Of a stretch of DNA of 64,000 nucleotides, positions 23,846 through 54,148 are shown piece by piece. Position 1 is the first letter of the stretch. Each line of letters opens with the position of its first letter. Source of the DNA: Polyangium fumosum. GTDB lineage: Bacteria > Myxococcota_A > Polyangia > Polyangiales > Polyangiaceae. Below the pieces are notes generated by a model. That model made no database searches. It saw only the letters and a list, made by a program, of their open reading frames with translations, and had not been told where the DNA came from. The stretch covers positions 1 to 64,000 of the forward strand of contig NZ_SSMQ01000058.1 of assembly GCF_005144585.1 (NCBI RefSeq), read 5' to 3'. The translations under genes and the position numbers were made by a program.

Positions 23846-24565
23846 TCACCTGTCTGATGCATAGATGAGATCGGAGCGCACCGCATACTTCACGCCGGCC
23901 GTGACCTCGGCGCCCTCGTGCAAGAGCAGGTGGTCGAACACGACGACACTCCCCGGGGCCGGACGCACCGCGAATCGCACGCGATTGTTGAATTTGCGCC
24001 CTCGCCCCTCCCCGCGGCGGCTCTTCTTGTCCTTCTCCTCGAAGAAGCGCGTCGAGCCGCCCTCGAAGCCTTCGTTCAAATAAATCATGAGCGACGCGCG
24101 CGTCTCCCCCCGCGGCACGGCCGTGCGCACGTCGACGTGCGGGGAGAAGCGCTGGCCGACCTCGTATCGATAGACCCGAAAGCGATCGTTCAGGCCTACG
24201 AGGGGCGAGGCCTCGTGCTCCGTATCCACGTGGCCACGAATGCGTGCCCAGAGCCCTTCGGCGAGCGGCGGCGCGTCGAGCACGACGCGCAGGTTGTTGC
24301 GGGCCGCGAGGTTCACCCGGTACGTGTCGTTGCCAATGGCGAGCCCCGCGTGCGTGAAGCCGATCGCCTCCGCCGTGGTGATCAATCGCTTGCATTCCTT
24401 CGGCGACATCACGCCGTGCAAGACATAGACCCCCTTCTCGACGTCCTCGCGCCGGACCGCGACGGCGCGGTCTTCGTCGAGCAAGACCTCGTCGAGGCGA
24501 TGCGGCACGGCGCGGAAGGTCTCCTCCCTGCGGAAAGAAATGTGGGTTCGGGATTTCATGGACAT
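23846..24565 (-). CDS. 2-oxoglutarate/Fe(II)-dependent prolyl-hydroxylase-like oxygenase
   Basis: Translation from the ATG at 24565 gives 239 residues. An upstream ATG at 24637 would overlap the prfB start and is rejected. The double-stranded beta-helix motifs are present: metal ligands in 'SPHVD' (His-x-Asp) and the distal His in 'LLLHEGAEV', and a basic residue in 'GVKYAVRSDLIY' for the cosubstrate carboxylate. The 'HGVMSPKECKRLI' segment is the usual P4H N-terminal strand. P4H-type enzymes hydroxylate proline in proteins. The gene is divergent from prfB with about 60 bp between starts, so both may share one regulatory region. Confidence 0.8.
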   Translation of the reverse strand: MSMKSRTHISFRREETFRAVPHRLDEVLLDEDRAVAVRREDVEKGVYVLHGVMSPKECKRLITTAEAIGFTHAGLAIGNDTYRVNLAARNNLRVVLDAPPLAEGLWARIRGHVDTEHEASPLVGLNDRFRVYRYEVGQRFSPHVDVRTAVPRGETRASLMIYLNEGFEGGSTRFFEEKDKKSRRGEGRGRKFNNRVRFAVRPAPGSVVVFDHLLLHEGAEVTAGVKYAVRSDLIYASDR

Positions 24566-24587
24566 GTCCTCGGCAGCCTGGTCGCCT

Positions 24588-24616
24588 TTGACGAAGGGAG
24601 CGCCGTCATGTATACG
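24588..24616 (+). promoter_or_regulatory. Sigma-70-type promoter of prfB, giving a probable leaderless mRNA
   Basis: TTGACG (24588-24593) and TATACG (24611-24616) are separated by exactly 17 bp. A start site about seven bases after the -10 falls at the prfB ATG (24624) or within two bases of it. No Shine-Dalgarno sequence is visible before that ATG, consistent with leaderless translation. Confidence 0.6.
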
Positions 24617-24623
24617 ATGATGC

Positions 24624-25713
24624 ATGAATTCTCCCATCCTCGAACGCCTCGCCGAGCTTCGTCGACGCCTGACCCGGCTCCGCGACGGTCTTTGACCTTC
24701 CCCGGCAGGCGCGGCGCCTCGCCGAACTCGACTTCCTTCTCAGCGAAACCGACCTCTGGCGCGACCGCGAACGTGCGGAGCAGCTCCTTGCGGAGCGAGC
24801 ACGTCTCGGCGCCCTGAACGATCGGATCTCCCACGCCGAGCGCGCGCTCGACGAGACGCATCCGTTTGTTTTGCTCGCCCTCCACGAAGGCGACGCGGAC
24901 GCGCTCGCCGCGGCCGAAGCTGATCTCGCAGGTATCGAGGTCGAGCTTCGCGAGGCGGAGCGATCGTGCGCGCCACCCGAACCGGAGGGGTGCATGGGCG
25001 CGATCGTGTCCCTTCAACCCGGCGCGGGCGGCGTCGACGCCAAAGACTTCGCGGCCATGCTCTTGCGGATGTATCTCCGCTGGGCGGCGCGGCGGGGGCT
25101 CGTCGTCGAGGAGCTTCACCGGCAGGAAGGAGACGAAGCCGGGATCGACGGCGCCGCGCTCCGGATTCCGGGCGCCGGTGTCTACGGCGCTCTCCGGGGC
25201 GAGACCGGCGTCCATCGGCTCGTGCGCGTGAGCCCTTTCGGCAGAGGGGATCGGCGACAAACCTCGTTCGTCGCGGTCGAGGTCTTGCTCGATATCGACG
25301 ACGCGATTCCCGTCGAGATTCGCGACGATGATCTCGAGGTGACCACGATGTGCGCCGGCGGGCCCGGCGGACAGAACGTCAACAAGGTCGCGTCGGCGGT
25401 CCGGATGCGGCACGTTCCGACGGGGATCGTCATCGTCGCTCGGTCGGAGCGCAGCCAGCTTCAAAACCGCGCGAGCGCGCTCCGGCTCCTCCGGAGCAAG
25501 CTCGTCGAGCTCGAGCTCGAGCGACGCGAACAGGCTGCGGCCGAAAGGCGCGGCGCTCGACCGGTCGCTCGATTCGGGCACCAGCGGCGCAGTTATGTCT
25601 TCGCGCCGCAGCGGCTCGTGCGGGACGAGATCACCGGGGGCGTGAGCCCCCATGTCGAGCGTGTCCTCGACGGAGACCTCGCCGTCCTTCTCGAATCCTC
25701 CCCGAAAAACTGA
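24624..25713 (+). CDS. prfB: Peptide chain release factor 2 with programmed +1 frameshift
   Basis: The first frame begins at ATG 24624 and ends after 23 codons at CTT-TGA (24690-24695). The +1 frame, entered at GAC 24694, runs to 25713, giving a product of 362 residues, close to the 365 of E. coli RF2. Domain 2/4 features are clear: the codon-reading 'SPF' in 'VRVSPFGRGDRRQTSF', the catalytic GGQ in 'CAGGPGGQNVNK', and 'VRMRHVPTGIVI'. The region corresponding to the usual 'WGxQIRSYV' reads 'FGHQRRSYVF', so the protein is rather divergent and might be a paralogue. It terminates at UGA/UAA codons. The frameshift provides feedback: low RF2 favours read-through at its own UGA. Confidence 0.85.
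24690..24696 (+). other. RF2 programmed +1 frameshift site CTTTGAC
   Basis: The heptamer CTT-TGA-C matches the E. coli prfB shift site exactly. The upstream stimulator is weak: the bases before it read GACGGT rather than an AGGGGG-type internal Shine-Dalgarno, so shifting may depend more on slow termination than on ribosome pairing. Confidence 0.85.
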
Positions 25714-25766: not shown

Positions 25767-27281
25767 ATGGAAGACCCTGCGCGCAGCGACGTTCCCACCG
25801 AACCCACCCCGCCTGCCGAATCCGAGGTCATCGCGGACGACGTCCGCCTGCTCCACCGGATGGGGTATGCCCAGGAGCTCCTCCGGCGGATGAGCGGATT
25901 CTCGAATTTCGCCGTCTCCTTCTCGATCATCTGCATCCTCGCCGGCGGCCTCACCTCCTATCACCTCGGCCTCTCCGCGGCGGGCGGCGCCTCCATTGGC
26001 CTCGGCTGGCCGCTCTCCTGCCTGCTCTCCTTTTGCTTCGCGCTCGCGATGGCGCAGCTCGCCTCGGCGTTTCCCACGGCGGGCGGCCTCTATCACTGGG
26101 CGTCCCTCCTCGGCGGAAAGGGCCTCGGCTGGGCGACGGCCTGGTTCAACCTCGTCGGCCTCGTCACGGTCCTCTCCGCGATCAACGTCGGCGCGTATCT
26201 CTTCATCGCAAGCTCGCTCGGCCCCGTCGTGGGTATCGACCCCGCGACACTCGGCCCGGGCCATCAGCTCGCCGCCGTCGTCGTCATCACCGCGACGCAG
26301 GCCCTCTTCAATCACCGCGGCATTCGCCTCACCACGCGCCTCACCGATTTCAGCGGGTATCTCATCTTCGTGGTCGCGACCGTCCTCACGGTCTCCATGC
26401 TCGTTTATGCGCCGCGCCTCGAAGCGTCGCGGCTCCTCACGTTCACGAATTTCAGCGGCGCGGGCGGCGGCGACGTCTGGCCTGCCACGAAGAGCATGGG
26501 CTGGCTCTTTTTGCTCGGCCTGCTCATGCCGGCGTACACGGTCACCGGGTTCGACGCCTCCGCGCATACCGCGGAGGAGACCGTCGGCGCCGCGATGAAC
26601 GTGCCCCGGGCCATTCTGCGCGCCGTGCTCCTGTCGGGCATTTTTGGCTACCTGATGGTGGCCTCGATCCTCCTCGCCATGCCGAGCGTGGAGGTCGCCG
26701 CCTCGAAAGGCCCGAGCGTGTTCTTCTGGGTGATGGGCGAGATCCTCCCGCGCCCCTTCCAGATCTCCCTCTACGTCGGAATCGGCATCGCTCAGTATCT
26801 TTGCGGCCTCGCCACCGTCACCAGCGCCTCGCGCATGACGTATGCGTTTGCCCGCGACGGCGGCCTGCCCTTCTCCGCGTCCCTCCGCCGCGTGAGCGCG
26901 GACCACAGGACGCCCGCCCATGCAATCTGGGTCGTCGCGGCCGTGAGCACGGGGTTCACCGTCTACACGCCCGTGTATTCGACGATCACCGCGGTCTGCA
27001 CGATTTTTCTCTACATCTCCTACGGCATGCCCATCGCGCTCGGTCTCTTCGCGTATGGCCGGACCTGGACCACGATGGGGCCCTTTTCGCTCGGCCCGTG
27101 GTATCGCCTCGTCGCGGGGATCTGCGTGCTCGCCTGCGTGCTCGTCCTCGTCATCGGCGTCGCGGCCCCGAATGACAAGGCTTTGCCGATCACGCTCGGC
27201 GCGCTGCTCCTCACGATCGTCGTGTGGTTCGGCGGCCTGCGGCGTATGTTCAAGGGGCCGCCGGCCGCGGATGCGCGTTGA
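25767..27281 (+). CDS. APC-superfamily amino acid permease
   Basis: The product has 504 residues and starts at the ATG at 25767, 53 bp after prfB. The frame is open further upstream, but that stretch overlaps prfB. It has about twelve hydrophobic segments. TM1 begins at 'MSGFSNFAVSFSIICILAGG' with the G-(x)-S-N helix break typical of the family, and TM2 follows in 'LGWPLSCLLSFCFALAMA'. 'PTAGGLYHWASLLGG' after TM2, and the internal 'GFDASAHTAEET' segment are hallmarks of the APC branch that includes GABA/choline-type permeases. Transport is probably by proton symport or exchange; the substrate is not visible. Confidence 0.85.
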   Translation: MEDPARSDVPTEPTPPAESEVIADDVRLLHRMGYAQELLRRMSGFSNFAVSFSIICILAGGLTSYHLGLSAAGGASIGLGWPLSCLLSFCFALAMAQLASAFPTAGGLYHWASLLGGKGLGWATAWFNLVGLVTVLSAINVGAYLFIASSLGPVVGIDPATLGPGHQLAAVVVITATQALFNHRGIRLTTRLTDFSGYLIFVVATVLTVSMLVYAPRLEASRLLTFTNFSGAGGGDVWPATKSMGWLFLLGLLMPAYTVTGFDASAHTAEETVGAAMNVPRAILRAVLLSGIFGYLMVASILLAMPSVEVAASKGPSVFFWVMGEILPRPFQISLYVGIGIAQYLCGLATVTSASRMTYAFARDGGLPFSASLRRVSADHRTPAHAIWVVAAVSTGFTVYTPVYSTITAVCTIFLYISYGMPIALGLFAYGRTWTTMGPFSLGPWYRLVAGICVLACVLVLVIGVAAPNDKALPITLGALLLTIVVWFGGLRRMFKGPPAADAR

Positions 27282-53916: not shown

Positions 53917-53990
<74 letters not shown>

Positions 53991-54056
53991 CCGGGTTCCG
54001 AGTCGACTCTACCCAGGGGAGCTCGGGAGGCCGTTGAAAATCGAAGCAGCAAAACC

Positions 54057-54129
54057 GGGCCATTAGCTCAATTGGTAGAGCAGTGGACTCTTAATCCATT
54101 GGCTGAAGGTTCAAGTCCTTCATGGCCCA
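54057..54129 (+). tRNA. tRNA-Lys (anticodon CTT)
   Basis: The 73-base gene has acceptor GGGCCAT/ATGGCCC, D-arm GCTC...GAGC, anticodon stem GTGGA/TCCAT with loop CTCTTAA, and T-arm GAAGG-TTCAAGT-CCTTC. The anticodon CTT reads AAG, the dominant Lys codon in this GC-rich genome. CCA is not encoded. It is 66 bp after tRNA-Arg and 20 bp before the terminator. Confidence 0.95.
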
Positions 54130-54148
54130 CCCGGTTCCAGAACGAAAA

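Follow-up and report, generated by a model that had tools for sequence, protein, structure and literature searches.

A second, diverged RF2-like gene in Polyangium fumosum that keeps the prfB frameshift site and has lost the Shine-Dalgarno-like stimulator

The +1 frameshift in prfB, the gene for the release factor RF2, is a textbook example of an autoregulatory circuit. The Shine-Dalgarno-like stimulator of prfB is described as "hyper-conserved" in a survey of 12,753 genomes (PMC12421855), and in Pseudomonas fluorescens, according to another study, disruption of the internal Shine-Dalgarno sequence sharply lowered RF2 (PMC13245932). Here we describe a gene from a 64,000-nucleotide stretch of DNA of Polyangium fumosum (hereinafter the window) in which the heptamer and the stimulator have been separated in nature; this gene is RF2-like, is under purifying selection and is found in two genera. 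It could serve as a natural test of the purpose of the stimulator and of the question whether two RF2 set-points can operate in a bacterium.

Identity and reading frames of the window gene

Five genes encoding RF-1 domains are present in the genome and, judging from a reading of their sequences, correspond to RF1, the standard RF2, the window gene, a PrfH-like gene (L004, G000:C191) and an ArfB-like gene (L005, G000:C167). The standard prfB is located on a separate contig (C134), where it reads CTAAGGGGGCATCTTTGAC and carries the site AGGGGG-CAT-CTTTGAC. Given the presence of this separate gene, the label prfB that the earlier note had attached to the window gene is misleading: the note missed that it is a second, diverged copy.

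The window protein is 46–47% identical to the main RF2 of the genome. It contains the PCRF and RF-1 domains (Pfam matches) and the intact motifs SPF (residues 203–205) and GGQ (residues 248–250), which we take to be functional motifs of the RF2 type. The closest solved structure by sequence is RF2, and RF2 is also on top of the fold matches of the predicted model (1gqe first), a model that is itself only moderate (pLDDT 79.5, pTM 0.60, GGQ loop under 50). The NCBIfam model TIGR00020 (prfB) gives the window protein 353.3 bits, under the cut-off of 370, and the main RF2 470.6 bits. In view of this score and of the moderate structural model, we refer to the protein as an RF2-like paralogue rather than as a proven RF2. 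At the level of sequence comparison, these observations establish that the genome encodes, beside the standard prfB, another class-I release factor of RF2 type, namely the diverged one of the window. In a rough count of 43 heuristically chosen open reading frames (ORFs) of the window, some of them doubtful, the stop codon is TGA in 26, TAA in 9 and TAG in 8, so that the demand for RF2 is probably high.

The window gene spans positions 24624–25713 of the + strand and yields a protein of 362 amino acids once a single base is skipped at the shift site. Its parts are the following:

24624–24695, + strand: zero-frame ORF of 23 codons (MNSPILERLAELRRRLTRLRDGL) with the stop TGA in frame; kept in six of six copies
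24690–24696, + strand: +1 frameshift heptamer CTT TGA C; kept in six of six copies
24694–25713, + strand: body of the paralogue in the +1 frame, residues 24–362, with the PCRF and RF-1 domains and the stop TGA at 25711–25713

This arrangement, in which a short first frame closes with CTT TGA C and the body lies in the +1 frame, is that of a programmed frameshift, and for the first frame, its end and the +1 continuation our coordinates agree with those of the earlier note. Position 24624 is the sole ATG, GTG or TTG start of the zero frame ahead of the shift site, and the first such start of the +1 frame is the TTG at 24871 (codon 83), with the first ATG only at 24994; the full product therefore needs both the start at 24624 and the shift. 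The claim that the RF2-like product depends on frameshifting is further supported by the retention of the heptamer and the first frame in all six copies, one of them at 50% protein identity. Two details had to be corrected, namely that 24871 had been given as the first ATG of the second frame and that 83 residues, rather than 82, were said to be missed by gene callers. Gene finders are expected either to call a start inside the second frame or to lose these 82 residues.

Distribution, divergence and gene neighbourhood

Of the six genomes covered from the genus, five carry a copy of this gene, and a further copy lies in one genome of another genus (G003). The orthologues in G056, G077, G086 and G093 show 92–94% identity to the window protein, and the copy in G003 shows 50%; no orthologue was found in the remaining genome of the genus, G014. 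The profile of the six scores 592–704 bits on five copies, with the next best match at 424 bits, in a draw of 377 genomes of the phylum from which G093 was absent, in which scoring was confined to the top five candidates of each genome and in which 36 genomes had no match at 1e-60. An 18-base pattern of the shift site occurs at 13 places in 12 of 317 genomes of the class, six of these places being the paralogues and the other seven not RF2-like. A wider search by named genomes, which may leave out near relatives, returned at least 80 loci, and among the matches listed all are at most 50% identical, so that its result carries little weight. In G024, there is a partial second RF2-like match at a contig edge (57% over 171 residues). 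No report of such a gene was found in the literature (open papers only).

The six paralogues form a single clade (support 100/99) with long branches. In one tree, this clade is placed next to canonical genes from its own genera and their neighbours; of the 20 same-order loci retrieved for this tree, one (L170) yielded no RF2 frame with the filter used. In a second tree, which includes three of the six paralogues and 18 of 19 same-order sequences, the paralogues branch outside both the family and its sister family, the support being weak (62/55), and a nearer placement is not rejected (p-AU 0.42).

The dN/dS values for the ten pairs of the five genus copies are 0.13–0.30, compared with 0.065–0.20 for 15 pairs of the main prfB, which argues against a pseudogene. 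In an alignment with 63 other RF2s, the window copy departs from the consensus at 12 of the 75 highly conserved columns and the copy from G003 at 10, with seven shared, as against 0–6 in seven other RF2s that were checked. In particular, Y329, K333 and R336, invariant in all 63 other RF2s, are changed in all six paralogues; R243, which 62 of the 63 retain, and E256, which 61 retain, are also changed in the paralogue. Given these changes in residues that are otherwise invariant in RF2, the activity of the paralogue may be reduced or altered.

Two genes adjoin the paralogue in all five genus copies:

23846–24565, − strand: 2OG-Fe(II) oxygenase gene (PF13640), divergent, 58 nt from the ATG of the paralogue
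25767–27281, + strand: amino-acid permease gene, downstream

Neither of them was found within 10 kb around the copy in G003, so the paralogue does not depend on the oxygenase or the permease. Within the genus, the oxygenase encoded head-to-head might modify the RF2-like factor. The best match to this oxygenase in G014, the genome without the RF2-like gene, is 39% identical. Elsewhere in the window, genes for tRNA-Arg(tcg) and tRNA-Lys(ctt) adjoin each other (53917–54131).

The shift site and the predicted leaderless start

Three further features precede or overlap the beginning of the gene:

24588–24593, + strand: −35-like TTGACG; TTGAC(A/G) in six of six copies
24611–24616, + strand: −10-like TATACG, 17 bp past the −35 and 7 nt ahead of the ATG; geometry in six of six copies
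24681–24689, + strand: CGCGACGGT, at the place of AGGGGG and the spacer codon of the main prfB; without stimulator, −3.0 kcal/mol

At the spacing of the E. coli stimulator, the window gene has CGCGAC (24681–24686) followed by GGT, and AGGGGG three nucleotides ahead of CTT is absent from all six copies, each of which retains CTTTGAC and a first frame with RDGL ahead of the stop. In the six paralogues, anti-Shine-Dalgarno pairing just before CTT amounts to −2.6 to −3.0 kcal/mol versus −10.2 to −11.4 kcal/mol in 31 other prfB genes of the family (−10.2 for the main prfB of this genome), all energies being calculated with an E. coli-type tail from which the tail of this genome may differ. This tail was assumed because the 16S of the genome was found neither by a pattern search nor by an rRNA model, which was applied to three genomes. 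The comparison covered 38 loci, including the main prfB loci of the family (L002, L011–L035 and L041–L046), of which L021 was dropped as it gave no usable start. The division into 31 genes with and six without the stimulator is partly a matter of construction, because the stimulator itself was used to separate the paralogues from the main genes; that the six genes coincide exactly with one clade of the tree is independent of this grouping. Thus, what had been noted as a weak internal stimulator is a real loss, conserved in six of six copies. Such a loss could alter the feedback on the RF2 level, and it may leave the gene with hardly any protein output.

Third-position changes are less frequent in codons 1–46 (6/46) than later in the gene (87/316; p 0.046, uncorrected), and codons 13–22 are more alike between the two genera than the comparison set (7/8 identical versus 76/155; p 0.036, one-sided, uncorrected), with 6/8 for two other copies compared between genera. 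These values are weakly suggestive of constraint at the nucleotide level in the early codons.

Transcription is predicted to begin at approximately 24623–24624, within one base of the ATG (24624). The arrangement TTGAC(A/G)-17-(TATACG/CATTGT)-7-ATG is common to all six copies, with CATTGT found in G003 from the other genus; by shuffling, the chance of this geometry is 0–0.0023 per copy (five of the six copies, L037 being left out). The two strands of the window together contain 1,141 ATGs, of which only the one at 24624 has a promoter score of 9 out of 12 at a leaderless distance; none of 27 further putative starts exceeds a score of 6, and many of these show Shine-Dalgarno pairing. Ahead of the ATG at 24624, pairing with the assumed anti-Shine-Dalgarno is only −0.7 kcal/mol. 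It is similarly weak in all copies except L039, where GGAG lies 16–19 nt upstream of the ATG (−7.1 kcal/mol), inside the promoter spacer and too far for a normal Shine-Dalgarno. The promoter-like hexamers and the lack of a Shine-Dalgarno sequence described in the earlier note are hence confirmed, and the leaderless mRNA that it proposed, with a 5' end placed by the promoter at the start codon, is supported as a prediction by the promoter geometry and its conservation.

The main prfB genes of the family carry an AT-rich box between −15 and −10, counted from the ATG, and have C at position −1 (28 of 30 distinct sequences); their best promoter matches are weaker and scattered. The box and the C at −1 suggest near-leaderless prfB mRNAs across the family. 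Given that the AT-rich box also precedes the ATG of the main prfB, a short or absent leader may be an inherited trait of the family rather than a speciality of the window gene. The −35 element lies within a second CTTTGAC (24586–24592), identical to the shift heptamer, which is probably a coincidence because TTGAC is the −35 core.

Possible roles and comparison with known systems

We propose, with a probability of about 0.58, that the window gene encodes a reserve or specialised UGA/UAA release factor that is gated by a high-threshold frameshift and made from a leaderless mRNA. As the conserved geometry implies, the promoter would place the 5' end of the mRNA at or next to the ATG. The full-length protein would then be produced by a +1 shift at CUU UGA C, a step that the reading frames and their conservation make necessary. 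Lacking the Shine-Dalgarno-like stimulator, the site would shift rarely as long as RF2 is plentiful and, by extrapolation from the published stimulator disruption, would do so more often only once the reading of UGA has become very slow. The protein would accordingly act as a reserve or low-level release factor for UGA and UAA that senses the termination capacity of both RF2 proteins. The domains and motifs, the single clade, the purifying selection and the shift site and promoter in six of six copies count in favour of this proposal, as do, weakly, the signs of constraint in the early codons; the changed invariant residues, the presence in only two genera and the chance that hardly any protein is produced count against it.

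A rather less probable reading is that the paralogue has diverged into a new role, e.g., rescue of stalled ribosomes or release at a special signal, with the shift site serving only as a sensor or brake. The long branch, the TIGR00020 score under the RF2 cut-off and the number of changed conserved columns, higher than in the other RF2s checked, all point in this direction, whereas the intact SPF and GGQ motifs and the retention of domain 1, features that set the protein apart from PrfH, speak against it; the genome has a PrfH of its own (L004). A prfB duplicate in decay, with the stimulator simply eroded, would account for the lost stimulator, the dN/dS above that of the main prfB and the missing copy in one of the six genus genomes; nevertheless, it is very unlikely given that the open frame, the heptamer and the promoter persist in all six copies across 50% protein divergence and that dN/dS is at most 0.30. 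It is no easier to believe that frameshifting is normal, with an mRNA hairpin on one side or the other of the shift site substituting for the Shine-Dalgarno. Such a hairpin can be drawn 8–9 nt past GAC in all six copies, and another before the shift site, but 33–57% of synonymous recodings fold equally well for the downstream hairpin and 14–83% for the upstream one. Against plain codon shuffles, the downstream hairpin has z values of −0.06 to −1.84. We rejected these hairpins as replacement stimulators since they are no stronger than synonymous recodings.

Extending the proposal of a reserve or specialised release factor, we tentatively suggest, at odds that we consider unfavourable, a two-tier RF2 circuit. 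The boosted site of the main prfB would provide fine tuning, and the stripped site of the second RF2 would be a high-threshold alarm, the protein being made from the leaderless mRNA only at a collapse of total UGA termination. The sum of both RF2s would read out both mRNAs.

Like PrfH, the window protein is an RF2-related paralogue that exists beside RF1 and RF2. Unlike PrfH, it has an N-terminal domain and its gene has a shift site; the PrfH model gives it 93.7 bits against a cut-off of 166.65, over residues 130–313 only, and the genome holds the separate PrfH-like gene L004. With leaderless mRNAs, the gene shares a promoter that is predicted to place the 5' end at the ATG and the lack of a usable Shine-Dalgarno. 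With prfB and its autoregulatory +1 frameshift, it shares CTT TGA C after 23 codons, the full RF2 domains, SPF and GGQ, whereas it differs from that system in being diverged, in existing besides a standard prfB and in having the heptamer without the Shine-Dalgarno-like stimulator.
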